Shown here: positions 4,872 through 61,032 of the stretch, piece by piece | Position numbering within the stretch: the first letter of the stretch is position 1 | Layout: each line of letters opens with the position of its first letter | Source of the DNA: an uncultured Kiritimatiellota bacterium | GTDB taxonomy: Bacteria > Verrucomicrobiota > Kiritimatiellia > RFP12 > DVOR01 | Direction of reading: 5' to 3' | Length of the DNA: 64,000 nt | NCBI GenBank assembly: GCA_944389585.1 | Contig: CALXMW010000008.1 | Location: 1-64,000 of the forward strand | The notes under the pieces: model-generated | The model's input: the letters and a program-made list of their open reading frames with translations, nothing else | Told to the model about the DNA's origin: nothing | Databases searched by the model: none | Position numbers and translations under genes: made by a program

Positions 4872-5522
4872 TCACGCCACGCGGCGGCGGAGCGCCGCGC
4901 CGGCCACGCCGAGGGCCAGCAGGGCAAGCGCCGTCGGCTCGGGCAGGGCGGCGATTTCGTCGCCGGTCGCCACGCCGGCCGCCACGGCCAGCTGGGCGTC
5001 GCCGCGCCAGAGGACGCTGCCGTACGGATCGGCGCCGACGAAGACATCCGTCCAATCGCCGGTCTTCCAGCTGTCCGGCGTCGTCATCGTGCCGAGCAGC
5101 GTGTCGTTGGCGTAGAACGAGATCGTCGTATCGCCGAAGACGATGGCCGCGACGAGGGAGTCGGTGCCGCTCCAGGAGAAGCTCGGCGCCGTGGTCACAG
5201 GCGTGTTCCCGCTCCAATCGGAGCCGATCTTGGTCTCGGTGTAGAACGTCCCGTCCGAGCCGACTTGCAGCCTCACCTGCTGGTTCGAGGTCGCGTTGTC
5301 CCTGAGCGTCAGCAGCGTTTGGTAGCTGTCCTCCGCAGGCAGGGAGCCGCCGGAGAGGACGACCGCGACGGTGAAGCCCGTGGAGGCGCTGTAGCCACCG
5401 CCGATCGACACCGGGGAATTGTTGCTCACGCTCGATTCCACCCAGTCGAAGGTCACCGCCTGGGCGGCGGAAAGGGCCACGGCGGCGAAGGCCAAGGCCG
5501 CGGCGAAGTATGCACGTTTCAT
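4872..5522 (-). CDS. PEP-CTERM sorted secreted protein 1
   Basis: A 216-residue exported protein. It has a signal peptide (MKR then an Ala-rich stretch to AQA, about residues 1-22). The body is a LamG/concanavalin-like beta sandwich, suggested by alternating Trp/Ser/Asp strands. The C-terminus is a classic PEP-CTERM anchor (LPEPTALALLALG, hydrophobic stretch, RRR). By family knowledge, PEP-CTERM proteins are processed by exosortase and end up at the cell surface or in the extracellular matrix; no exosortase is in this window. No Shine-Dalgarno precedes the ATG at 5522, unlike PEP-CTERM 2 and 3. It lies at the edge of the AT-rich island, and its missing leader may be the orphan one at 11224-11536. 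Confidence 0.8.
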   Translation of the reverse strand: MKRAYFAAALAFAAVALSAAQAVTFDWVESSVSNNSPVSIGGGYSASTGFTVAVVLSGGSLPAEDSYQTLLTLRDNATSNQQVRLQVGSDGTFYTETKIGSDWSGNTPVTTAPSFSWSGTDSLVAAIVFGDTTISFYANDTLLGTMTTPDSWKTGDWTDVFVGADPYGSVLWRGDAQLAVAAGVATGDEIAALPEPTALALLALGVAGAALRRRVA

Positions 5523-5550
5523 ACGGAAGTGATAAATTAGAACGGTTAAT

Positions 5551-5634
5551 ATGGGCGATACGGTAAGCGCCCATATAGGTAAGCAGGCGGCATAGATCAG
5601 CACCGGGGGACGGGCTGGCCTATGCCGCCTGCTT
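5551..5634. repeat. Two inverted repeats at the left island boundary
   Basis: The first is ATGGGCG/CGCCCAT (5551-5557 and 5568-5574). The second is a perfect 15-bp pair, AAGCAGGCGGCATAG (5581-5595) and its complement (5620-5634), around a 24-nt loop. They lie between PEP-CTERM 1 and the AT-rich island. They could be a terminator for the incoming island operon or a junction structure. The gap 5523-5974 holds these, the 36-bp repeats and a further hairpin, but no gene I can support. Confidence 0.6.
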
Positions 5635-5676
5635 GCGTTTCGGAGGGATAGGGATGCAGCTGCAATTTTGCGGGCT

Positions 5677-5778
5677 GTACCGGCTTCCTGACAAAACAGG
5701 GGGTTTCCAAAGTCATACGGCAGCCAATACATTGGCCGCAGGGTACCGGCTTCCTGACAAAACAGGGGGTTTCCAAAG
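5677..5778. repeat. Two 36-bp direct repeats separated by 30 bp
   Basis: An identical 36-base sequence beginning GTACCGGCTTCCTGAC occurs at 5677-5712 and again at 5743-5778, separated by exactly 30 bases (5713-5742). The geometry resembles one CRISPR repeat-spacer-repeat unit. There are only two copies, no AT-rich leader and no cas gene nearby. It sits in the gene-free zone at the left end of the defence island. Confidence 0.85.
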
Positions 5779-5845
5779 GGGGCCTCCCTTTGGCACACGG
5801 CTTTGCTCGCAAAATGTAATGTGTTATACCTGCTGTCACGGCTGG

Positions 5846-5891
5846 CGGGTAAAATGAGGGTTTCGCCGGATGGAAACGCTCACTTTGCCCG
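5846..5891. repeat. Imperfect hairpin downstream of the island operon
   Basis: CGGGTAAAATGAG-GTTTC pairs imperfectly with GAAAC-GCTCACTTTGCCCG across an 8-nt loop. It lies about 85 bases beyond the stop of the HEPN gene on the minus strand, so it may help end the island transcript. Base composition here is intermediate between island and host. Confidence 0.4.
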
Positions 5892-5974
5892 GCAGGAAAA
5901 CGGGCAGGTTTTTGCGGATGGGAATGAGCAAAAAGCTGGGCGGTTTCGAGAGTGGCAGCAGGTATATGTAACGC

Positions 5975-6511
5975 TTATCTTTTCAAGTACGATGGGTCTA
6001 AGACAGTTTCTATTAGCGAAATAAAATTACACGCTTGGCGATATTTCTTATAAATTTCTTCCACGGTAATATTTACATCAAATTCTGCAAAGTTTTCATG
6101 AACTAATAAATTTCTCTGGCGACCCAGGTCGATAAAGCATTGCTCTGCTGTTTTTAGCTTTTCATCGCCGTTTATCGTTTGCCTGACACTCTCTTTTGTT
6201 TCTTCACCGAAAAGCTTCCAAAAAGCGTTCGTATTATTCGCTTTCCAGTCGAACAGTGTATGATATTGGCGTTCAATAACTTTTGATTCAATGAGCTTCA
6301 CAATCCTTTTGTCCGATCCACTGGCTTTTGCCGCATATTTAGAAATCAATTCAGAAATCCTGCTTTCAAAATAGCTGGCTGCCGACAAAACAAGCACTTT
6401 TTTATAAACGTTATCTATGTATGTGGCAAAGGAAATTTCGCCCTTGCCAAGTAGATAGTTATATAATTCTTGGGAATCTTGATATTGTCTCTCTATTCGT
6501 TCGCTTTCCAT
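5975..6511 (-). CDS. HEPN-domain protein, MAE_28990/MAE_18760-like
   Basis: A 178-residue, mostly helical protein. Near residue 135 it carries RNLLVH, which fits the Rx4-6H active-site motif of HEPN ribonucleases. The MAE_28990/MAE_18760 HEPN group is known to sit next to DUF262 genes, and here the gene starts only 2 bases after the DUF262 stop. Inference: the pair forms a two-gene defence or toxin-like unit in which HEPN is the nuclease effector. A GAGGA Shine-Dalgarno precedes ATG 6511. It is the last gene of the minus-strand island operon, and its AT-rich codon use is unlike the host genes. Confidence 0.65.
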   Translation of the reverse strand: MESERIERQYQDSQELYNYLLGKGEISFATYIDNVYKKVLVLSAASYFESRISELISKYAAKASGSDKRIVKLIESKVIERQYHTLFDWKANNTNAFWKLFGEETKESVRQTINGDEKLKTAEQCFIDLGRQRNLLVHENFAEFDVNITVEEIYKKYRQACNFISLIETVLDPSYLKR

Positions 6512-6513
6512 TT

Positions 6514-7677
6514 TTAATCCTCAATGTTAGGTTCTTCAATTCCATATAAATATTTGCGTGCAAGCCGTAGTCTTGTCTTCACGCTTTCAACATGGGAGGT
6601 GCTATGAGTAATTGCATTTTTGAAGTTCTCATCCTTTTTTAGTGCGTCAAAAGCATCCTGTGTAATCGCAGCTTGTTCAATACCATCAGCCAATATTTTT
6701 TCAGATATAGTTACAAAAACTGCATCAAAAAGGGATACATTAAAGCTGCCTGTTTGAGCTAAAAAATCTTTCTTATCAATATCAGCACAAACACTTATAA
6801 AGTCAAAAAAGAGCTTTTTACTTTGCTCAATCTTTTCTCCATCAAATCCCTGTGCTTCCTTAGAAAAACGGTTTAAGAAACGGATCATTGAACCAGAATA
6901 CAATTCTCCGTCATATAACAGGGCGTATGAACGCAACAAAACCTCAACATCACGGAACTTGTCATCTTCTTCTTTCTTCCCGACAATATCGCGCCAACAA
7001 GGTTCAGAATTTAAGGAATAAATCATCTTATAGAAATCAGAACGATACAAACAACCTCTGATTTCTTGAGGCGATAGATTCAAACCACCGGTATTAAGAC
7101 GACTAAAAATCTCATAGATTGATCCATCATCTTCAGGTCTGTTTTGCCTTATTGACATACAGCGAATAGGCATAAGGTCAAATGAACTCTTTTGGGCAAC
7201 GTCCAGAGTATAATACTTTTTGTTGTTCAAGGGGTGCGGTGCGCCATTTTCTTGCTTGGCAAACTGCAATTTGAAATCTTGAAAGATTTCATTGTCAGAT
7301 AAAACATTATCAGGGATATTGCCGTTTTCATCAAAAACTTTCCGCAAAAAAGTCCGCTTTCCGCTTCTCGGGAATCTCTGGTTCACAAAGAAATATATTG
7401 TCAAAAGACGTTGTTGCCCATCAATGATGCTATATTTATTTCTTTCTACTTGATATAAAAAAATCTGTGGTATAGGAAGGCCCAAAATCAAAGATTCTAT
7501 GAATCTGGAAGCACGTTTCCTATCCCATACATAGTTGCGCTGGAAAGCAGGCATTGATATTACGCCAGACTCAATAAGGCTGTTAATTGTCATAACATTG
7601 AAGTCGTTCGGGATGACGCTAATATCATACGAAACGACAGAGGTTTCCTCATCTTGCATTTCATAATGCTCAGGCAT
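6514..7677 (-). CDS. DUF262 (ParB/Srx-fold) domain protein
   Basis: A 387-residue protein. The N-terminal DUF262 domain shows FQRNYVWD near residue 48 and the hallmark IIDGQQRLLT near residue 87. In GmrSD-type enzymes this domain hydrolyses NTP and is paired with an HNH DUF1524 domain; no HNH motif is visible in the C-terminal half here. The separate HEPN protein downstream may supply nuclease activity. ATG 7677 (MPEHYEMQ) was preferred over an upstream in-frame ATG because AGGAGG lies 8-9 bases before it. It overlaps the 3' end of the upstream methyltransferase by 8 bases, so the two are coupled. Confidence 0.75.
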   Translation of the reverse strand: MPEHYEMQDEETSVVSYDISVIPNDFNVMTINSLIESGVISMPAFQRNYVWDRKRASRFIESLILGLPIPQIFLYQVERNKYSIIDGQQRLLTIYFFVNQRFPRSGKRTFLRKVFDENGNIPDNVLSDNEIFQDFKLQFAKQENGAPHPLNNKKYYTLDVAQKSSFDLMPIRCMSIRQNRPEDDGSIYEIFSRLNTGGLNLSPQEIRGCLYRSDFYKMIYSLNSEPCWRDIVGKKEEDDKFRDVEVLLRSYALLYDGELYSGSMIRFLNRFSKEAQGFDGEKIEQSKKLFFDFISVCADIDKKDFLAQTGSFNVSLFDAVFVTISEKILADGIEQAAITQDAFDALKKDENFKNAITHSTSHVESVKTRLRLARKYLYGIEEPNIED

Positions 7678-8770
7678 TGTTTGTTCCTCCTTTTTCAATT
7701 TTCTGGATGACATCCATGACATCTGAAGCTATCCCCTGCGATAGTAGTACGGGCACACCATTACCTACCATTTTAAATTTTAATGATAAAGACAAGCCTG
7801 TGGGAAGTACAAATTCTGCCGGTACCGATTGTAATGCTAAGGCTTCTGCTACGCTAATCCTGCGCATTTTATACGGATGAAGATGCACTTCGTTGTTTCC
7901 GTATGCGGAAGTTGGAGCATATCTCCAGCGATGTAAACGCTTAAAAGACTTTCCAACTGTTGCTCCTTCGGGAATGCTTTTGTATTTATCATACGCCTTT
8001 ACACCGAATATATCATTTCCGTTTGGATGGGTTTCAACTTTATTCATATCAAACCAATACTGTGTGGTAAGATCCTTGGCAATCCCATGCGGGCAATCTA
8101 ATTTACCATCGACTACAAATGGAGAAAGTGTTGGCCACGGCATTTTAAGAATATCGTTCAAGTTGTATTTTTTATGCGCCCCAATAGTACACACTGTTTT
8201 CTTTCCAAATACTTTAGTAGAGAACCCAAGTAAAAACAATCTACTCCGATATTGCGGGACACCATACTCCAATGCATTTTCTATCGAATCAAATAGAGAA
8301 TATCCGGCTCGTCGAAAGCGTCTTTTTATCTCATCATAGAATTCACGATGTTTTTTTGTTTGATATAGTCCTTTGACATTTTCAAAAACAAAAAAATCCG
8401 GTTTTCTTTTGACAATCAGATCAGCATATATCGAAGTCAAGTGGCCGTTTGCTCCATCTTTTCCTGTATTTTTCCCGGCCACAGAAAAATCTGGGCAAGG
8501 CGGGCCGCCGATAAAACCAATTAGCTTTCCATTGCGTTTATCATAACTTGGGAACGAATATTTCCACACATCATCCAATAAGTATTCCCTAATATCTTTA
8601 TCGCTATACCCATAAATCGGAATGTGCTCCTTATTTCTTCTTGCGTATTGATATGCGTTGAGGAATCGCTTATCATATTCGTTTACAAAGACGATATTGA
8701 AGCCAGCATTCTCAAATCCCAAATCTAAGAGGCCCAATCCCGAGAAAAAAGAAAACACTTCAACATCCAT
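7670..8770 (-). CDS. DNA cytosine-5 methyltransferase (second m5C enzyme of the island)
   Basis: A 366-residue C5-methyltransferase with motifs in order: I (FSGLGLLDLGFENAGF, residues 8-23), IV with the catalytic Cys (GGPPCPDFS, about 88), VI (FENVKG, about 130), VIII (QYRSRLFLLG, about 172) and X (GNGVPVLLSQ, near the C-terminus). It uses AdoMet to methylate C5 of cytosine in a DNA target that cannot be read from sequence. It lies between the endonuclease and the DUF262 gene. It may methylate the second strand of an asymmetric site, or serve the DUF262-HEPN pair. A GGGAG Shine-Dalgarno precedes ATG 8770. Confidence 0.9.
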   Translation of the reverse strand: MDVEVFSFFSGLGLLDLGFENAGFNIVFVNEYDKRFLNAYQYARRNKEHIPIYGYSDKDIREYLLDDVWKYSFPSYDKRNGKLIGFIGGPPCPDFSVAGKNTGKDGANGHLTSIYADLIVKRKPDFFVFENVKGLYQTKKHREFYDEIKRRFRRAGYSLFDSIENALEYGVPQYRSRLFLLGFSTKVFGKKTVCTIGAHKKYNLNDILKMPWPTLSPFVVDGKLDCPHGIAKDLTTQYWFDMNKVETHPNGNDIFGVKAYDKYKSIPEGATVGKSFKRLHRWRYAPTSAYGNNEVHLHPYKMRRISVAEALALQSVPAEFVLPTGLSLSLKFKMVGNGVPVLLSQGIASDVMDVIQKIEKGGTNNA

Positions 8771-8795
8771 CTTCTTCTCTCCCTACAAGTTTATT

Positions 8796-9530
8796 TTAAT
8801 TTCCCGAATTGAACTCCACAAGTTTCTCCCAATCAATGCTGCCATCTTCAAAGCAGAATTCCTGGGTAAACTCGCGGACGAGCCGGTTAGCCGCTTTCTG
8901 ATAAGAGGCATTGAATTCCTCCACATACTTTTCCGGCAGCTTGTCCATGAAGCGGATCAGCTTTATGTAGAACTCTTCATCGCCGGTCAATTCTGTCCAG
9001 AAATCCTTACCCGCCAATTCCATGTAGAACTTGGGAAGTCCGCGGTTGGAGGACTTCTTCTTCCCATAGCCATAGCCGACAATCGGGACAAAGCGTTTCT
9101 TCGCCTGCTGTGCCAGCTTGCTTGCCGCCATGAAATTTTGCTCCTGCTTCTTGCGGCTGTCTGCATTGAAAACGCTGGTGCCGGATTTTACCGCGATGGC
9201 ATAGATGGTATTGTCCCGTTCCACCATGATGTCCACGCCCTCCGCCAATGCTTTCTGCCCTTGTGCGGCTGCGGTGGCAATCGGATCAAAGAACACATTC
9301 CCGAAAATCGTTTCCTCGGACGAGGACACAAAAGCGGCGAGGATTGCGTCAATAATCTGGGCCGCCCCGTTCATGGCTTTGGCCCGGAACAGGTACGGGT
9401 TCTTGCGCTTCATAACGGCCTTAACATTAAGGCTATCAACCTTTTTAATCAGGTTCGTATAGAAATTGTCCAGCGCGGTTGCAATCGCTTCTACGATGGC
9501 ATCTTCGTTGTAGCTGTTATTTATGGGCAT
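8796..9530 (-). CDS. Type II restriction endonuclease, PmeII-like PD-(D/E)XK
   Basis: A 244-residue protein. The block KRKNPYLFRAKA (about residues 41-52) followed by SSSEETIFGNVFFDPIA (about 70-86) is typical of PmeII/TdeIII-type endonucleases. GVDI near residue 98 and AVKSG near 112 fit the D...xVK core of a PD-(D/E)XK nuclease. It would cut unmodified DNA at the site protected by the adjacent methyltransferase(s). AGGAGG precedes ATG 9530, and the start overlaps the upstream methyltransferase stop by 14 bases, a tight coupling that makes the methylase come first. The exact family name is from memory of the motif pattern. Confidence 0.65.
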   Translation of the reverse strand: MPINNSYNEDAIVEAIATALDNFYTNLIKKVDSLNVKAVMKRKNPYLFRAKAMNGAAQIIDAILAAFVSSSEETIFGNVFFDPIATAAAQGQKALAEGVDIMVERDNTIYAIAVKSGTSVFNADSRKKQEQNFMAASKLAQQAKKRFVPIVGYGYGKKKSSNRGLPKFYMELAGKDFWTELTGDEEFYIKLIRFMDKLPEKYVEEFNASYQKAANRLVREFTQEFCFEDGSIDWEKLVEFNSGN

Positions 9531-10713
9531 AGCAGTTTCCTCCTATTTCAATGGCTTGTTTCAGTTTTTGATGGATGTCCGTCCCTCTAAACCGCTTTGT
9601 ACGGATTTCAGCGGATTGATCCGCAACGGAAATTACCGCTTTCCCCAGCGCCAATGCCAGCCCCACCGGGACGGCATTGCCGATCTGGCGGTATTTCGCT
9701 GCGCTTGTCCCCATGAACTTCCAATCATCGGGGAACTGCTGGATGCGGGCATATTCCCGGATGCTCAAGGGACGGTCTTGGGTCGGGTGGCACATCATGG
9801 TTGCCTTTTGCACCGGGGATGTAACCAATGTCGGGGATGGCTGGCTGTACGACAGCCGCCGATAGAAGCCGACTTTCCCGCCGCCGGAGCCATAAGCGCC
9901 GCCCATGGCCTCTTTCCGTATATCCTCTGGGAGGTCGCGCCAATTCCCGCCCTCCGGGACAAGGCGGAGGTATGCAAGGCGGTCTTTGCTGAATGCGGCA
10001 CACTCCCCACAGTCATATTCCAAATCCTTGATGGTGTCCTGCAAAGTGCGCCAGCGGTATTGCGGGTCTTGGTGCATCTGGAAGTGGGTCGGGAAAGGCA
10101 GGAAAATATCTTCATTATCCCGGCTCCCGATCAAGACGAACCGTTCCCGGAATTGAGGGACGCCATAATTGACAGCGTCCAATATTCCGTATACCGTTTT
10201 ATATCCCAACTTGTTAAACTCGGACAGGATTACATCCAAAACAGTCCCTAAACGCTGCTCTGGGTCATTTTTATCACGTTCTGCCAGCGGGATATGCTTG
10301 AGTGGGGCAGACATAATCCCTTTGACATTTTCCATGATAAAAAAGCGGGGGCGGATATAGTCAATCATACGGATAAAGTCCATGAATAGGCTGCCCCGGG
10401 GATCATTGATCCCCATCCGCTTGCCGGCGGTGGAAAATGGCTGGCAAGGAGGCCCGCCGCAAATGAGGAAAGGCTCCCCCTGTGCCAGCCCGGTCTGTTC
10501 CAGTAAATCCGCCTCATCTATCTCGCGGATATCCCCGCCCAGCACCTTATGTCCATTCGCACGCATGGTAGCAACGCAGGCGGGGTCAAAATCCTGCCCG
10601 ATTACAATATTTAAGCCAGCTCTTGCAAGACCGATATCCAGCCCCATCGCCCCGGAAAACAGGGAGATTACATCCCGGTTTGAAGCGTTATCCTTGAAAT
10701 GCAGTAAATCCAT
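9517..10713 (-). CDS. DNA cytosine-5 methyltransferase, Dcm-like
   Basis: A 398-residue C5-methyltransferase. Motif I is LFSGAMGLDIGL (residues 18-29), motif IV GGPPCQPFSTAGK (catalytic Cys about 89), motif VI MENVKG (about 129), motif VIII QFRERFVLIG (about 190) and motif X IGNAVPVGLALA (about 345). It differs clearly from the second methyltransferase downstream. It is followed, with overlap, by the PmeII-like endonuclease, its likely cognate partner, and preceded by a small XRE regulator. A GGAGGG Shine-Dalgarno precedes ATG 10713. Confidence 0.92.
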   Translation of the reverse strand: MDLLHFKDNASNRDVISLFSGAMGLDIGLARAGLNIVIGQDFDPACVATMRANGHKVLGGDIREIDEADLLEQTGLAQGEPFLICGGPPCQPFSTAGKRMGINDPRGSLFMDFIRMIDYIRPRFFIMENVKGIMSAPLKHIPLAERDKNDPEQRLGTVLDVILSEFNKLGYKTVYGILDAVNYGVPQFRERFVLIGSRDNEDIFLPFPTHFQMHQDPQYRWRTLQDTIKDLEYDCGECAAFSKDRLAYLRLVPEGGNWRDLPEDIRKEAMGGAYGSGGGKVGFYRRLSYSQPSPTLVTSPVQKATMMCHPTQDRPLSIREYARIQQFPDDWKFMGTSAAKYRQIGNAVPVGLALALGKAVISVADQSAEIRTKRFRGTDIHQKLKQAIEIGGNCYAHK

Positions 10714-10725
10714 AATGCCCTCCTA

Positions 10726-10935
10726 TCAAACCTTTTCGCCATCTGGAAGGACAAAATGGCGTTCAAAAGAACACCCCACCGTTTCCGCCAGATATTCTAA
10801 GTCGGAGATTGTGAAGCTTTCCCGCTTCAGTTTTGAGTTGAAATTTTGCGGCGTAGTCCCCATCCGCCTTGCAAGTTCTGCAACGCTGATATTGGAGCGC
10901 ACACACAGCACTTTGATCTGTTCTGATATTGTCAT
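10726..10935 (-). CDS. XRE-family helix-turn-helix regulator (controller-like)
   Basis: A 69-residue protein that is essentially one HTH domain: ISVAELARRMGTTPQNFNSK covers the helix-turn-helix. Its size and position, 12 bases upstream of the Dcm-like gene, resemble controller proteins of type II restriction systems, which time methylase and endonuclease expression. AAGGAGT precedes ATG 10935. The 15-bp perfect palindrome at 10968-11003 just upstream could be its operator, though it may instead be a terminator. Confidence 0.7.
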   Translation of the reverse strand: MTISEQIKVLCVRSNISVAELARRMGTTPQNFNSKLKRESFTISDLEYLAETVGCSFERHFVLPDGEKV

Positions 10936-10967
10936 AAGGGTACTCCTTGTAAATTATCAATTTATAA

Positions 10968-11003
10968 GTTGAAGATATAAAAATATTATTTTATATCTTC
11001 AAC
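10968..11003. promoter_or_regulatory. Perfect 15-bp AT-rich palindrome upstream of the XRE gene
   Basis: GTTGAAGATATAAAA (10968-10982) and its exact complement (10989-11003) surround a 6-nt loop. It overlaps the stop codon of the Vsr-like remnant and lies 33 bases upstream of the regulator's ATG. It may be an operator for the controller protein, or a hairpin that stops transcription entering the island from the orphan leader at 11224-11536. The sequence alone does not decide. Confidence 0.6.
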
Positions 11004-11201
11004 ACAGTCCCTCATGTCCTCTATCATACCATCAAACTGCATCATCTGCAACTCGAAAATCAAATCTTCGACAGCTTCCACACATTCCGCTGTCCGCTTT
11101 TGTATCTCCTTCCCCCAAAAGTGTATGGGTACCCAATCCATCGCAATTAGCTTGAAGTCATTCTCCCGATCACGGGCCATATTGCGCTCAACCTTTTTGA
11201 T
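10986..11201 (-). pseudogene. C-terminal remnant of a Vsr/DUF559-like endonuclease
   Basis: The reading ARDRENDFKL...DWVPIHFWGKEIQKRTAECVE resembles the C-terminal end of Vsr-type and DUF559-like PD-(D/E)XK endonucleases, where a line such as LGWxVLRFWGKEI is common. About 71 codons remain. The similarity-like reading runs upstream of the first ATG (11180) to an in-frame stop at 11202-11204, exactly where the base composition changes to GC-rich host DNA. The N-terminal catalytic half is therefore missing. Vsr enzymes repair T:G mismatches from deaminated m5C, which fits the linked m5C methyltransferases. It is probably non-functional. Confidence 0.55.
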
Positions 11202-11223
11202 CTAATTCGTCACGACGAAACAT

Positions 11224-11536
11224 GTGGTTGGGTTGCTCCTTCCGCCCCGAGGGTGGCCGAGGGGGACTGGGGCGGGAGGTGGGCCCTTCGGCTGTCGCGC
11301 CGCGGACACGCGCCCGCGTGCGCCGCCCGCCGTCGCCGCCGGGGCCGCCCCCAAAAGGGGCGCACCCCTCGCCGGTCTCCGTTCAGGCCCTGAGAAGCCT
11401 CTTTAGGAACACGAAAAGGATGCGCCAAATTTGGCGCACCTTGCCTTGTCTTGTTGCCTAAAGCGCGAATTTCTCAGTTTCGAACGGACAACTTGCGCAG
11501 CACTGTGCGGGTGTCGCCGTGGCTCTCCCACGGCGT
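11224..11536 (-). promoter_or_regulatory. Orphan copy of the structured PEP-CTERM 5' leader
   Basis: Aligns along its length, roughly 70% by eye, with the leader of PEP-CTERM 2 (29319-29634). Conserved pieces, read on the plus strand: CCGTGG-CTCTC-CCACGG hairpin (11518-11534); TTCTCAG...CTGAGAA long-range stem; TGCGCCA-TGGCGCA hairpin (11421-11438); CTTCGGCTGTCGCGCC block; and a GC hairpin just before AAGGAG. An ATG (11223-11221) follows the Shine-Dalgarno but opens only an 11-codon reading frame into island DNA. The gene it served is gone. This whole interval (11205-11594) contains no protein gene I can support. Confidence 0.75.
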
Positions 11537-11542
11537 GCCATC

Positions 11543-11571
11543 AGAATAACACAACCGCCCGGCCGGGGCAA
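11543..11571 (-). promoter_or_regulatory. Promoter of the orphan leader
   Basis: On the minus strand TTGCCC (11571-11566), a 17-base spacer and TATTCT (11548-11543), preceded by TGTGT. It occupies the same relative position as the promoter of the intact leader at 29641-29670. Its transcript would run through the orphan leader into the defence island. Confidence 0.6.
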
Positions 11572-16939: not shown

Positions 16940-17905
16940 TTACTGGTTCTGGGCGCGGCGCTCCTTGGCGAGGGTCTGCTCCCACTGCTCCTTGCAGGCC
17001 ACGCACCGGATGGCGAAGGGGGCGGCCTTGAGGCGCTCGGTGGGGATGAGCTTGCCGCACATCGAGCACACGCCATAGGTCTTGTTCTTGATGGCGCGCA
17101 GGGCGTCGTCGATGGCGCGCAGGCGCATATGCTGGCCGTCGGCGCGGGTCAGGTCGGCCGTGCGGTTGAAGGCGTTGGTGCCGTCCTCCTCCACGTTCTC
17201 CTCGTCGGTCTGACGCAAGGCGTTGGTGCGCGCGGAATTGAGCTGGGCCAAAATCTCCTCGCGGTCGGCGATGAGCCGCTTGCGGAAGCTCTCGAGCGTG
17301 GCGTCGCTGAAACGCTGCTTGGCCGGGGCGGCCTTCGCGGCGGCCTTCGCGGGCTTGGCCCCGGAGGGGCGGACGATGGTGTAATTGGCCTTGATCGCCG
17401 GCGCCTTGGCCGGCTTCGCCGCGGGCGCGGGCTTCACGACGGCCTTGGCCGCCGGCTTCTTGGCCGGGGCCTTGGCCGTGGTCTTCTTCACCGCTTGATT
17501 AGCGGCGTTTTTTTTTGCGGGGGCCTTCGCCGCAGGCTTGGCCGCTGGCTTCTTCGCCGCGGGCTTCTTGGCCGGGGCCTTCACCGCAGGCTTCTTGGCA
17601 GGAGGCGCCTTCTTCGCCGCGGGCTTGGCCGCCGGCTTCTTGGCCGGGGCCTTCGCCGCAGGCTTCTTGGCCACGGGTTTGGCGGCGGCCTTGGCCGCAG
17701 GCTTCTTGGCCGCGGGTTTGGCGGCGGCCTTGGCCGCAGGTTTCTTCGCCGGCGCCTTCGCGGGAACCTTTTTGGCCACAGGCTTGGCCGCGGGTTTCTT
17801 CGCGGGGGCCTTGGCCGCAGGCTTCTTGGCGGGGGTGGCCTTCTTCGCCGCGGGTTTGGCGGCGGGCTTCTTGGCCGGCTTGGAGGCTTTTGCTTTCGTA
17901 GCCAT
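16940..17905 (-). CDS. DksA/TraR zinc-finger protein with histone H1-like Lys/Ala/Pro-rich tail
   Basis: A 321-residue protein. Residues 1 to about 190 are tandem [10 protein letters not shown]-type repeats, as in bacterial H1-like DNA-binding proteins. The last about 110 residues are a DksA-type module: a coiled coil ([16 protein letters not shown]) and a C4 zinc finger, CSMCGK near 278 and CVACK near 299. DksA acts on RNA polymerase; the basic tail would bind DNA or RNA. The DksA coil-tip DxxDxA motif is not obvious, so direct DksA function is uncertain. A9 within the coding strand (17508-17516) is a slippage-prone run. AAGGAGT precedes ATG 17905. Confidence 0.8.
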
Positions 17906-27723: not shown

Positions 27724-27940
27724 ATGGGAGAACAAAGAACAGAGAACAGAGAACGGAGAACAGAACGCCCCTGCGGGGCGACGGAGTGGCGGATGGGCGA
27801 CTGTGGGATGTTTGCCCTGCAGGGCTTTCACGAAGACCACACAGGATCACGAAGGGGTCTTGGTGTCTCACTCAGGTTGGCCCGTCGCGCTTGCGCGCGT
27901 TCTGTTTTCTGTTCTCTGTTCTCCGTTCTCTGTTCTCCCC
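27724..27940. repeat. Foldback element with heptamer-repeat arms between thi4 and thiE
   Basis: The left arm (27724-27767) is tandem AGAGAAC-type heptamers. The right arm (27895-27938) is their complement (GTTCTCT units). Over about 43 bases the arms are inverted repeats with roughly five mismatches. The 127-bp centre is GC-rich and non-coding. The whole looks like a miniature foldback element. It fills nearly the entire thi4-thiE gap and could form a very long hairpin in the transcript. Confidence 0.75.
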
Positions 27941-27977
27941 ATTCCCTTCCCCCAGTTCACCTCATCACGGAGCTCCC

Positions 27978-28667: not shown

Positions 28668-29318
28668 TTACGCCACGCGGCGGCGGAGCGCCACACCGGC
28701 CACGCCCAGCGCCAGCAACGCCAACGCCGTCGGCTCCGGCACGGTCTGCACGGAGACGCTGTTGACTGTCCAAGGCGCGTCGTTCGTGACGGTGATGGTC
28801 GTCTCGAGGTCGCCCGTGCCGAACCCAAGGCTTCCATAGTCGGCAGAGGGGGCTTGGCCCCAACCCATGGAAGCATCAGAGACAACGCCGAGGGTCACGC
28901 CATCGATGCTCAGTTCGATGTCCCAGCCACCGTTGGCAGCCGTGAACGTAAGCGCATAGGTATGCGTGTTCTGGGCGGCGTCGCCATCAGGATTGTAGGC
29001 AGGGACGTCCGCCGTCGTCCAAGCGTTGTTGAAGTGGGCACCAATGCCATTGGAGCCGTTGTACCACGCCAACCCATTGTACTGGTTGTCAGCGTCAATC
29101 AGTTTTCCGAACCCAATGACGGGAGCGTTGTTGGTGAACCCTTCCGGCGTTTTGCCCGTGAGCGTGATGTTCGCCGTGAGGACAAAGCTCTCGTTGAGGG
29201 AGCCGAGGGTCAGCGTGCCGTTGCTTTGGCCAGCCGTACCGCTCCACGAGAGGCTCACCGCCTGGGCGGCGGAGAGGGCCAGGGCGGCGACGGCCGCCGT
29301 GAGGAGTGTCTTTTTCAT
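28668..29318 (-). CDS. PEP-CTERM sorted secreted protein 2
   Basis: 216 residues, the same length as PEP-CTERM 1. Signal peptide MKKTLLTAAVAALALSAAQA; a beta-rich body with many Thr/Asn and Trp (LSWSGTAGQSNGTLTL, YALTFTAANGGWDIELSIDG), probably a LamG-like sandwich. It has the anchor VPEPTALALLALG...RRR. GGAAAGGAG precedes ATG 29318. It has a long structured leader (29319-29634) with its own promoter. By family knowledge, exosortase would process it for surface or matrix display. Function unknown. Confidence 0.85.
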   Translation of the reverse strand: MKKTLLTAAVAALALSAAQAVSLSWSGTAGQSNGTLTLGSLNESFVLTANITLTGKTPEGFTNNAPVIGFGKLIDADNQYNGLAWYNGSNGIGAHFNNAWTTADVPAYNPDGDAAQNTHTYALTFTAANGGWDIELSIDGVTLGVVSDASMGWGQAPSADYGSLGFGTGDLETTITVTNDAPWTVNSVSVQTVPEPTALALLALGVAGVALRRRVA

Positions 29319-29634
29319 GGTTGTGGTGTTTCTCCTTTCCCGCCCCACCGGAGGCCGGAGGGAACCGGGGCGGGAAAGACGGGGCCCCTTCGGCTGTCGC
29401 GCCACAGACACGCGCCCGTGTGCGCACGCTTCCCGCCAGAGAGAGGGGCCAATGGAAAGGCGCACCTCCCACACGTCTCATCTCAGGCCCTGAGAAGCCC
29501 CTTTGGGAACGCGAGGAAGGGTGCGCCAAGAATGGCGCACCTTGCCTGCCACGTTGCCCAAATACGAATTTCTCAGGTTCGAGATGACAACATTCTGCAC
29601 GCAAAGCGCAATTGCCGTGGCTCTCCCACAGCGT
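29319..29634 (-). promoter_or_regulatory. Structured 5' leader of PEP-CTERM 2
   Basis: About 315 nt between the predicted start (near 29634) and ATG 29318. Elements shared with the orphan copy at 11224-11536, given on the plus strand: CCGTGG/CCACAG hairpin (29615-29631); CCTGAGAA and TTCTCAGG long-range stem (about 29488 and 29570); TGCGCCA-AGAA-TGGCGCA hairpin (29522-29539); a CCTTCGGCTGTCGCGCC block near 29388-29403; and an 11-bp stem TTTCCCGCCCC/GGGGCGGGAAA that ends at the Shine-Dalgarno. Stems are kept while loops vary, suggesting conserved RNA structure. No known riboswitch core is recognised. Confidence 0.7.
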
Positions 29635-29640
29635 GCCCTT

Positions 29641-29670
29641 AGCATACACCCTTCCCGACGGCCTTTGCAA
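29641..29670 (-). promoter_or_regulatory. Promoter of the PEP-CTERM 2 leader
   Basis: On the minus strand TTGCAA (29670-29665), an 18-base spacer and TATGCT (29646-29641) with a preceding GTG. It diverges from the bioG promoter about 60 bases away. Confidence 0.65.
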
Positions 29671-55793: not shown

Positions 55794-56855
55794 TTATTTT
55801 GCGTTTGGGTTTGGGCGGAGGCGGGCGAGGAGGCGGGCGAGGAGGCCGCGGGGGCTGTCTTCGGGCAGGGGGCAGGGATGGGCGTTGAGGCTGGCGTAGC
55901 GGGCGCGGAGGGCGTCTTGGGAGGAGAGGGGGCGGGGGCCTTGGGGGGGAAGGGCGTAGGTGCCGTCGGGTTTCATGCGGCGGGCCTTGGCGTCGTCGGC
56001 GCGGAGGATGGCGATGAGCTGGAGGAGGTCTTGGCGGCAGTCGGGGTCGACGATGGGGGTGTAGACCTCGACGCGGCGGTTGAGGTTGCGGTTGAGGAAG
56101 TCGCCCGAGCCGATGAAGAGGCGTTCGTGGCCGGGCGCGCCGAAGCAGAGGAGGCGCGTGTGCTCGAGGCTGTCGCCGACGACGGAGCGGATGTCGAGGT
56201 TGTCGGTCTTGCCAGGGATGCCGGGGCGGACGCAGCAGATGCCGCGGACGTGGAGGTCGAGGCGGACGCCGGCGCGGGAGGCCTCGATGAGCTTCCGGAT
56301 GAGCGGCATGTTGTTGAGGGAGTTGACCTTGAGGAAGGCGTAGGCGGGGCGGCCGGCGCGGGCCTCGGCGATCTCTTGGTCGAGCTGGGCCAGGAGGCGG
56401 GGGAGGAAGGACTTGGGGGCGACCCAGAGGGCGTCGCTCTCGACCTCGGGGTCGCCGAGGCAGAGGGCGCGGAAGAGGCGGATGGCGTCGCGGCCGATGG
56501 TGGGGTCAGCGGTGAGGTAGGAGAGGTCGGTGTACTGGGCGGCGGTCTTTTCGTTGTAGTTGCCGGTGCCGATCTGGGTGAGGGTGCGGGGCTCGTCGCC
56601 GCCGTCGTTGTAGAGGATGAGGCAGACTTTGGCGTGGACTTTGTAGCCGGGGAGGCCGTAGATGACGGTGCAGCCGGCCTCCTGGAGCATCTCGGAGTAG
56701 TTGATGTTGTTCTCCTCGTCGAAGCGGGCGCGGAGCTCGAGGACGCAGAGGACGTCCTTGCCGTTCTCGGCGGCGCGGGCGAGGCCCCGGGCGAATCGCC
56801 TCGGGGCCTCAGTATGGAGGGATAGGAGAAACGAAGATGAGCGGCTTGCACTCAT
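55794..56855 (-). pseudogene. Truncated second copy of polyphosphate kinase (C-terminal half)
   Basis: An open frame of 353 codons. From residue about 24 on it is identical in protein to the C-terminal half of Ppk encoded at 58918-61032, including YKVHAKVCLILYN and VRGICCVRPGIPG. The N-terminal half of Ppk (with part of the active-site tunnel) is missing and replaced by MSASRSSSFLLSLHTEAPRRF; the last about 10 residues also differ (LARLRPNPNAK). On DNA level the shared block is 956 bp. A TATCTT -10 lies 12 bases before ATG 56855, so it might be expressed, but kinase activity is unlikely. Confidence 0.85.
55829..56784. repeat. 956-bp direct repeat, copy 1 (ppk 3' part)
   Basis: Matches 58938-59893 base for base by eye, offset 3109, same orientation. 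The right junction falls at a 9-bp inverted repeat (GAGGCCCCG...CGGGGCCTC, 56781-56810). Confidence 0.9.
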
Positions 56856-58917: not shown

Positions 58918-61032
58918 TCAGTGGCGGAGGAGGCGGCGGAGGCGGGCGAGGAGGCCGCGGGGGCTGTCTTCGGGCAGGGGGCAGGGATGGGCGTTGAGGC
59001 TGGCGTAGCGGGCGCGGAGGGCGTCTTGGGAGGAGAGGGGGCGGGGGCCTTGGGGGGGAAGGGCGTAGGTGCCGTCGGGTTTCATGCGGCGGGCCTTGGC
59101 GTCGTCGGCGCGGAGGATGGCGATGAGCTGGAGGAGGTCTTGGCGGCAGTCGGGGTCGACGATGGGGGTGTAGACCTCGACGCGGCGGTTGAGGTTGCGG
59201 TTGAGGAAGTCGCCCGAGCCGATGAAGAGGCGTTCGTGGCCGGGCGCGCCGAAGCAGAGGAGGCGCGTGTGCTCGAGGCTGTCGCCGACGACGGAGCGGA
59301 TGTCGAGGTTGTCGGTCTTGCCAGGGATGCCGGGGCGGACGCAGCAGATGCCGCGGACGTGGAGGTCGAGGCGGACGCCGGCGCGGGAGGCCTCGATGAG
59401 CTTCCGGATGAGCGGCATGTTGTTGAGGGAGTTGACCTTGAGGAAGGCGTAGGCGGGGCGGCCGGCGCGGGCCTCGGCGATCTCTTGGTCGAGCTGGGCC
59501 AGGAGGCGGGGGAGGAAGGACTTGGGGGCGACCCAGAGGGCGTCGCTCTCGACCTCGGGGTCGCCGAGGCAGAGGGCGCGGAAGAGGCGGATGGCGTCGC
59601 GGCCGATGGTGGGGTCAGCGGTGAGGTAGGAGAGGTCGGTGTACTGGGCGGCGGTCTTTTCGTTGTAGTTGCCGGTGCCGATCTGGGTGAGGGTGCGGGG
59701 CTCGTCGCCGCCGTCGTTGTAGAGGATGAGGCAGACTTTGGCGTGGACTTTGTAGCCGGGGAGGCCGTAGATGACGGTGCAGCCGGCCTCCTGGAGCATC
59801 TCGGAGTAGTTGATGTTGTTCTCCTCGTCGAAGCGGGCGCGGAGCTCGAGGACGCAGAGGACGTCCTTGCCGTTCTCGGCGGCGCGGGCGAGGGCCTGGG
59901 CGATGCGGCTGTTGGCGGCGAGGCGGTAGAGGGTGATGCGGATGGCGGAGACCTTGGGGTCCTCGGCGGCCTGCTCGAGGAGCCTGACAAAGGGGGAGAT
60001 GCTCTCGAAGGGGAAGTGGAGGAGGCGGTCGCGCTCGCGGACGCGCCGGGCGATGTCGCCCTGGGCCCAGTTGACGTGGCAGGGCTTCCTGGGGGCGGCG
60101 CAGAGGCGTTGGGCGACCTCCGGGGGGAGGGCCTTGCCGAGGGCGAAGGCGAAGTCCGGCGCGAGGGGAAGGCTTTGGGCGCGGGGCTCGACGCCGGGGG
60201 GGAGGGCGAGGCGCTCGGCGAGGAGGGACTGGAGCTCGGGGCCGACGGGACGGTCGAACTGGAGGCGGACGGGCGCGAGGCGCTTGCGGCGGCGGACGAA
60301 GTCGCGCATCGCGCCGCGGAAGTCGCCCTCGCCCTCGCGCTCCTCGACGGTGAGGTCGGCGTTGCGGGTGACGCGGCAGACGACGGTCTCGGCGAGGTCC
60401 CGGCGGCCGTAGAGCTTGGGGGCGAAGAAACGGACGACGGCGGAGGGGTGCAGGGCCCAGTGGCCGGCCTCGTCGGAGAAGAGCTTGAGGCGGGGGAGGC
60501 GGCCTAGGGGGATGACGCCGAGGGTGCGTTTGCCGAGGCGCGAGACGACGGCCTCCTCGCGGTCGCGGATGAAGGGGAAGGGGTGGTGGGCGTCGATGGC
60601 CAGGGGGGAGAGCAGCGGCTTGAGCTCGTCCTTGTAATAGCGGGCCATGGCGGCGGCGCGCGGGCCTTCGAGCGCCTCGGGGCGCAGGCAGGAGACGCCC
60701 CCGGCCTGGAGCGCGGCGCGGATGCCCTGGGCGACGCGCCCGGCCTCGTCGGTCAGGCGCTCGGCCTCGCGGCGGGCGGCGTCGAACTGCTGGGCGGGGG
60801 TCCAGCCGGTCTTGTCGTCGATCGGCGGGGGCTCCAGGGCCATCTGGTCAAGGAGGGTGCCGAGGCGGACGCGGTAGAACTCGTCGAGGTTGCTCTGGAA
60901 GATGCCCAGGAAGGTGAGGCGATCCAGGGGCGGGCGCGCCTCAAGGGCGGCCTCCTCGAGCACGCGGCGGTTGAAGGCGAGCCAGCTCAGCTCGCGGTTG
61001 AGGGTGCAGCCGTAGGCAACAGTCTCGTCCAT
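58918..61032 (-). CDS. ppk: Polyphosphate kinase
   Basis: 704 residues, full length. Makes inorganic polyphosphate from ATP and acts in reverse. Domains in order: N domain (LNRELSWLAFNRRVLEEAAL, residues 11-30), head, C1 with YKVHAKVCLIL holding the autophosphorylated His (near residue 420), and C2 with VRGICCVRPGIPG and DFLNRNLNRRVEVY. The 3' part is duplicated at 55829-56784. Its start overlaps the end of ppx by 46 bases, so the pair is an operon for making and removing polyphosphate. Confidence 0.96.
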   Translation of the reverse strand: MDETVAYGCTLNRELSWLAFNRRVLEEAALEARPPLDRLTFLGIFQSNLDEFYRVRLGTLLDQMALEPPPIDDKTGWTPAQQFDAARREAERLTDEAGRVAQGIRAALQAGGVSCLRPEALEGPRAAAMARYYKDELKPLLSPLAIDAHHPFPFIRDREEAVVSRLGKRTLGVIPLGRLPRLKLFSDEAGHWALHPSAVVRFFAPKLYGRRDLAETVVCRVTRNADLTVEEREGEGDFRGAMRDFVRRRKRLAPVRLQFDRPVGPELQSLLAERLALPPGVEPRAQSLPLAPDFAFALGKALPPEVAQRLCAAPRKPCHVNWAQGDIARRVRERDRLLHFPFESISPFVRLLEQAAEDPKVSAIRITLYRLAANSRIAQALARAAENGKDVLCVLELRARFDEENNINYSEMLQEAGCTVIYGLPGYKVHAKVCLILYNDGGDEPRTLTQIGTGNYNEKTAAQYTDLSYLTADPTIGRDAIRLFRALCLGDPEVESDALWVAPKSFLPRLLAQLDQEIAEARAGRPAYAFLKVNSLNNMPLIRKLIEASRAGVRLDLHVRGICCVRPGIPGKTDNLDIRSVVGDSLEHTRLLCFGAPGHERLFIGSGDFLNRNLNRRVEVYTPIVDPDCRQDLLQLIAILRADDAKARRMKPDGTYALPPQGPRPLSSQDALRARYASLNAHPCPLPEDSPRGLLARLRRLLRH
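58938..59893. repeat. 956-bp direct repeat, copy 2 (inside intact ppk)
   Basis: Same block as 55829-56784. The repeats flank about 2.15 kb holding the GH110-like gene. Recombination between them would delete or duplicate that gene. Confidence 0.9.

Follow-up and report, generated by a model that had tools for sequence, protein, structure and literature searches.

Attenuators and riboswitches control expression through mutually exclusive stems, such that either a structured core or a terminator or Shine-Dalgarno (SD)-hiding stem can form, and this arrangement constitutes their expression platform. Two known elements, EAR and JUMPstart/ops, sit in the leaders of operons for polysaccharides and related surface functions. 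EAR is a processive antiterminator and, as far as we know, lacks a terminator of its own that overlaps its core, and JUMPstart acts together with RfaH. We also know of no description of restriction systems being controlled at the RNA level by a conserved leader. The EAR/epsC motif (RF01735) and JUMPstart/ops (RF01707) are both listed in PMC2864571, and the Bacteroidota motifs Flavo-1 (RF01705) and Bacteroidales-1 (RF01693) were found computationally in the same work by Weinberg et al. 2010 (PMC2864571). FopS of Bacteroides is an sRNA that acts in trans and has a single-stranded seed at its 5′ end and a single terminator hairpin (PMC11697453).

How does the leader RNA found in a 64,000-nt stretch of an uncultured Kiritimatiellota genome (the window) compare with these systems? 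It resembles riboswitches with terminator or SD platforms in its conserved, pseudoknotted 5′-leader core, in joining letters that are conserved between stems of freely varying sequence, and in a strand that is common to the core and to a terminator or SD-hiding stem. Unlike riboswitches as a kind, it reaches up to 30 copies per genome, lies in front of genes beyond one metabolic pathway and matches no Rfam class. Like EAR and JUMPstart, it precedes polysaccharide and surface genes, and like the c-di-GMP riboswitches it is a multi-copy leader RNA in front of surface and biofilm-type genes. Identity with the latter was rejected because no tested copy has a significant Rfam match and no GGDEF protein was found in the genome. 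FopS and the present RNA are both multi-copy structured RNAs in Bacteroidota, but the latter sits in leaders and has a core of several helices. Copies tested from the window, from Kiritimatiellota and from Bacteroidota returned only unrelated weak matches in Rfam 15 at gathering and E-value thresholds, and the models of RF01735 (EAR), Flavo-1, Bacteroidales-1 and other Bacteroidota motifs gave no match to the scanned copies. A search of mainly open-access articles, which may have passed over an unnamed earlier listing, returned no description of this leader RNA or of any conserved leader RNA of restriction systems. The proposal of an undescribed cis-regulatory RNA, made in a preliminary description of this locus, is strongly supported by 30 copies in the genome, very strong covariation, a 5′ leader location and the lack of an Rfam match. 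We consider it probable (approximately 0.72) that the leader belongs to an undescribed family of cis-acting, structured 5′ RNAs and acts as a riboswitch-like attenuator.

Architecture of the leader and its two copies in the window

The leader lies on the minus strand in front of a PEP-CTERM gene of 216 aa (28668–29318; Pfam PEP-CTERM, E 8.7e-07), with a predicted promoter at ~29670, the RNA core at 29474–29634 and the ATG at 29318. The sigma-70-type promoter (29641–29670) is read from the sequence as TTGCAA (29670–29665), a spacer of 18 nt and TATGCT (29646–29641), and its transcript would begin near 29637. Equivalent boxes (TTGCa-N17/18-TATnnT) sit just 5′ of other leader copies. At the putative 5′ end of the transcript stands hairpin P1 (29614–29632, GCTGTGG-GAGAG-CCACGGC), in which each of the 7 pairs has changed on both sides among 59 copies and 96% of cells are paired, followed by hairpin P2 (29597–29611, TTGCGC-TTT-GCGTGC; all 6 pairs changed on both sides, 92% paired). 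The GGA-like P1 loops suggested a CsrA site, a candidate that was set aside since GGA is missing from several loops and P1 is not conserved beyond Kiritimatiellota.

The center of the fold (29479–29586) comprises P3, P4 and P5 with their joining regions, and all 20 of its 20 helical pairs co-vary, with 97–99% paired. P3 (29586–29581/29484–29479) is separated by J3/4 (GAA, 29580–29578) and J4/3 (GCCT, 29488–29485) from P4 (CCTGAGAA/TTCTCAGG, 29577–29570/29496–29489), which is in turn separated by J4/5 (ATTCG, 29569–29565) and J5/4 (GGGC, 29500–29497) from P5 (29564–29559/29506–29501). Covariation counts place a pseudoknot between TTG (PKa, 29588–29590), 5′ of P3, and CAA (PKb, 29554–29556), which precedes P6. 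The P6/P8 arm (29510–29553) contains P6 (29553–29550/29513–29510; 4 of 4 pairs co-vary) and P8 (AAGGTGCGCC/GGCGCACCCT, 29543–29534/29527–29518; 10 of 10), and its 3′ strand is referred to as X. A segment complementary to X, termed Y, follows at 29456–29476 together with a weak U-run (ACGTGTGGGAGGTGCGCC-TTT) and offers a terminator-like alternative. The leader ends in an SD-proximal hairpin (CTTTCCCGCCCC...GGGGCGGGAAAG, 29334–29380), of a kind found only in PEP-CTERM copies, and a predicted SD sequence AAGGAG (29332–29337). A corresponding hairpin folds in the leaders of other PEP-CTERM copies, where its two arms vary in concert (TTTCCCGCCCC/GGGGCGGGAAA, TTCGTCCCC/GGGGCGAA and TTCGTTCCGG/CCGGGACGAA).

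The elements named in the preliminary description, namely the promoter, the GCTGTGG/CCACGGC hairpin, AAGGAG and ATG, all lie where it had placed them, and its CCTGAGAA/TTCTCAGG stem around GGTGCGCC/GGCGCACC, its CTTCGGCTGTCGCGCC block and its GC hairpin abutting the SD are confirmed in the sequence. It had overlooked the pseudoknot, the conservation of the joining regions and the mutually exclusive X–Y terminator or SD structure.

The arrangement of the 29670–29319 leader recurs on the minus strand at 11571–11221. This second copy has its RNA core at 11374–11536 (121.6 bits, E 1.4e-21 with covariance model R1, see below), runs on to an ATG at 11223, and scored 73% identity (E 1.8e-42) when the whole genome was searched at the nucleotide level. 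A MAFFT alignment of the two window leaders displays an invariant CTGAGAAATTCG...GGCTTCTCAGGGCCTGA core, and, relative to shuffles, their central folds reach z = −2.8 and z = −2.6. The first copy directly precedes its PEP-CTERM gene. The second is parted from its gene by a 5.7-kb island: the ATG after the leader opens a frame of 11 codons, beyond which a low-GC restriction-modification/defence island, delimited by its junction sequences, occupies 5523–11220 (minus strand) and encodes an HTH protein, two C5 methylases, an EcoO109I-type endonuclease, a GmrSD_N protein and a 178-aa protein. On its far side lies a PEP-CTERM gene (4872–5522, minus strand; recognized by sequence and a C-terminal PEP-CTERM repeat), which was evidently once served by the second leader. 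The island ends form an imperfect inverted repeat (12 of 18 positions by eye), and no integrase was seen within 5523–11220.

Distribution of the RNA and covariation of its core

Covariance model R1 (167 positions, 47 pairs) was built from 14 copies of this genome. The nucleotide search of the whole genome returned ~16 full or partial leader copies, and an R1 search of the 1.95-Mb genome returned 30 (E 3.5e-30 to 1.3e-7), with far weaker reverse-strand matches (best E 0.004 in the genome). Both copies first noticed are real, and a count of two was far too low. The search of related genomes that had been proposed as a check found the RNA in 44 of 59 relatives, representing 13 of 20 genera, and R1 places it in 82 of 240 genomes of the class. 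A two-anchor pattern matched more than 112 stretches in GTDB genomes, from uncultured Kiritimatiellota and from many Bacteroidota (Prevotella, Niabella, Pedobacter, Sphingobacterium, Larkinella, Chitinophaga and Muribaculaceae), and R1 scores for the Bacteroidota stretches reach 57 bits. One of the stretches (L091) agrees in score and coordinates with a match in a same-genus genome, which suggests that the window comes from a genus known from uncultured gut Kiritimatiellota MAGs. A second model, R2, was built from Bacteroidota sequences only, and it recovers copies in the window's own genome at E ~1e-12, so the homology is reciprocal. Inside the window's phylum, R2 matches are confined to the window's class. 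R2 detects the RNA in at least 27 of 296 Bacteroidota genomes. Niabella defluvii carries ~11 copies and N. hibiscisoli 7, and three copies stand in tandem inside 740 nt of a Rikenellaceae contig (L154:714–1449). One exact pattern scan of viral contigs gave no match.

The covariation check that had also been proposed, performed here by pair counts, argues strongly for the structure. Among 59 copies aligned to R1, in an alignment that is fitted to the structure except for the pseudoknot, 51 of 51 tested base pairs show double-sided changes, and double-changed cells number 764 compared with 206 ± 16 in shuffles. Paired cells amount to 94.8% versus 70.6% in shuffles, and the covariation score is 0.68 versus 0.22 shuffled and at most 0.15 with partners slid. 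The pseudoknot is absent from the model, and all four of its pairs co-vary (89% paired). A wide-window test of this pairing is weakly discriminating in Kiritimatiellota (own 14.4–14.7, cross 13.0–13.2) and clearer in Bacteroidota (own 15.3, cross 12.6). The unpaired letters are strongly constrained, with J3/4 AAA conserved at 85/95/100%, J4/3 GCCU at 92/98/98/85%, J4/5 UUUC at 85/98/85/81% and J5/4 GGGC at 57/100/95/78%. The 5′ strand of P4 takes 17 different sequences, although the joining letters that flank it (AAA/GCCU and UUUC/GGGC) are conserved, and copies from different phyla have these letters in common but not their stem sequences.

One hypothesis is that the element is a dispersed DNA repeat or a hot spot of cassette insertion, that is, a recombination site that only appears structured through the common ancestry of its repeats. 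The many copies per genome, the very different genes behind the same leader and the insertion of the restriction-modification island exactly at the leader/ATG junction would all fit. However, every helix carries compensatory changes, which is unlike random drift, the copies are restricted to promoter-leader positions on the coding strand, and different phyla keep the same joining letters with other stem sequences. Compensatory changes and a fixed relation to genes set the element apart from the plain dispersed repeat that the preliminary description had named as a refuting result, and we regard a DNA repeat as very unlikely.

Predicted alternative pairing of strands X and Y

Riboswitch leaders are recognized by a structured receptor and by a strand that this receptor has in common with a terminator or SD stem. 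The first is present as a receptor conserved in the 5′ leader and backed by covariation, and the second is predicted from the sequence, given that X can pair instead with Y, which lies 10–40 nt after the core. The predicted energy of the X–Y duplex for own pairs versus swapped pairs is −42.9 versus −33.5 kcal mol−1 in this genome (30 copies), −36.6 versus −27.7 kcal mol−1 in other Kiritimatiellota and −31.6 versus −24.8 kcal mol−1 in Bacteroidota, and own energies lie beyond those with shuffled Y in all three groups. This co-variation could arise partly from X and Y each matching one P8 arm. The X–Y hairpin is almost unbroken over ~22 bp in one leader (L031), and another (L014, equal to L046) has 16 consecutive matching bases by eye. 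A U-run follows Y in 26 of 30 copies of this genome, 47 of 51 copies from other Kiritimatiellota and 71 of 85 Bacteroidota copies. In the window copy at 29456–29476, the X-to-Y stretch folds at −41 kcal mol−1 versus −58 for the core, and since Y is followed by only UUU, its terminator would be weak.

The copies differ in what lies beyond Y. In many non-PEP-CTERM copies Y resembles AAAGGGAGCGTGCTTTTTATGG, such that the SD falls within Y and the ATG just past the U-run, whereas PEP-CTERM copies carry an extra ~70 or 150 nt after Y that close in the SD-proximal hairpin. The start codon on the same strand stands 19–23 nt away in copies with the SD in Y, 70 or 150 nt away in those of PEP-CTERM genes and often 45–100 nt away in Bacteroidota. 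The block from Y to the ATG is open in some PEP-CTERM copies, but single-base indels shift the frame between copies, and a leader peptide or N-terminal extension was rejected.

Read from sequence, transcription, switching, effector and direction of control would be related as follows. The nascent RNA would fold into P3-P4-P5, the pseudoknot and the conserved joining regions AAA/GCCU and UUUC/GGGC around P4. If this core is held, X would stay paired inside the P6/P8 arm and expression would proceed. If it is not, X would pair with Y and form, in most copies, an intrinsic terminator of stem and U-run, and in copies with the SD in Y (AAAGGGAG...TTTTTATG) the same pairing would also hide the ribosome site. 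An effector recognized by the conserved joining regions would choose between the two states, and most likely it would turn the genes on.

Could the leader act without switching, or without its downstream gene? A passive 5′ UTR would stabilize the mRNA by its 5′ hairpin and structured leader, and P1 at the presumed 5′ end and the SD-proximal hairpin could indeed protect the mRNA and keep the ribosome site open. This account leaves the pseudoknot, the conserved unpaired letters and the alternative X–Y pairing with its U-run unexplained, and we consider it unlikely. We consider improbable the further alternative that promoter, core and terminator delimit a free, trans-acting sRNA of ~190 nt whose downstream gene is incidental. 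The promoter 5′ and the U-run 3′ would bound a discrete transcript of this type, but the copies stand consistently close upstream of a start codon on the same strand, several hold the SD inside Y and no conserved single-stranded seed is found.

Genes behind the leader and its putative effector

PEP-CTERM genes lie behind slightly more than half of the 30 copies found in this genome. The remainder lie in front of glycosyltransferases, acyltransferases, an FrhB-like protein, an oxidoreductase, an Mrr-helicase restriction protein and DNA methyltransferases, so that the designation of the RNA as one for PEP-CTERM surface proteins fits only the larger part and leaves out polysaccharide, restriction-modification and other genes. 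Among 78 downstream genes of the Bacteroidota sample, which was selected through a single P4 sequence and the order of contigs and may thus be biased in its gene classes, DNA methyltransferase and restriction genes predominate, in addition to others. One PADLOC type II methyltransferase family accounts for 13 of the 78, type IIG for ~5 and EcoRI-type methylases for 4, and D12, C5, HsdM-type and Mod-type methylases, a Tsp45I endonuclease and DrmD-type helicases occur as well. Those methyltransferase families are absent among the commonest matches of 70 control ORFs of the same loci, which do include restriction helicases and some IIG matches; the controls are not independent because restriction operons extend through the same 8-kb loci. 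In a crude second comparison, 18% of the downstream genes and 6% of the other ORFs of these loci contain methyltransferase motif IV (p 0.0016). The regulon is wider than restriction, since the Niabella copies mostly precede a short uncharacterized family and receiver-domain-like proteins. The former, of ~150–170 aa (FNEAQWLQVLFLLADT...AHILERHY), has no Pfam match and follows the leader at Niabella loci L204, L205, L213, L214, L220 and L225, and the small receiver-domain-like proteins follow Bacteroidota copies L230 and L219.

This varied set of genes points to no obvious ligand. An alternative hypothesis is that a dedicated regulatory protein, and no small molecule, binds the core and brings about protein-dependent attenuation or antitermination. 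The gene set (surface, polysaccharide, restriction) is like that of operons under RfaH/JUMPstart or EAR antitermination, and the evidence for the RNA fold is compatible with either type of effector. On the other hand, the same joining-region letters are kept across two phyla, no candidate protein was identified, and the genome (94% complete) yielded a single NusG homologue and hence no paralogue of the RfaH, LoaP or UpxY type. The single homologue disfavors RfaH/JUMPstart or UpxY/LoaP antitermination in particular, and a protein effector in general is a possibility to which we give limited weight.

Returning to the riboswitch-like attenuator, we tentatively hypothesize that a new riboswitch-class RNA of the Kiritimatiellota-type class and Bacteroidota may respond to one shared signal, such as a nucleotide-like cue of infection or stress, and switch a regulon of surface-protein, surface-polysaccharide and restriction-modification genes. 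If so, the switched genes would be the layers that decide the entry of phage or foreign DNA, and co-regulation of restriction, surface sugars and surface proteins by one RNA would render the coordination of outer and inner barriers to foreign DNA testable. The leader belongs to an apparently undescribed, multi-phylum family whose comparative support is of the type normally expected for candidate riboswitches, and its occurrence in cultivable Bacteroidota (Niabella) makes it testable.

Three further repeats were observed in the window. A 300-nt repeat of 99% identity occupies 55814–56113 and 58923–59222, 3.1 kb apart, and represents either a recent duplication or an assembly effect. A tandem low-complexity coding repeat of Ala/Lys/Pro type (histone H1-like) lies at 17403–17878, and an inverted repeat of GAACAGAGAAC units, with 91% identity over 43 nt, lies between two genes at 27726–27955.
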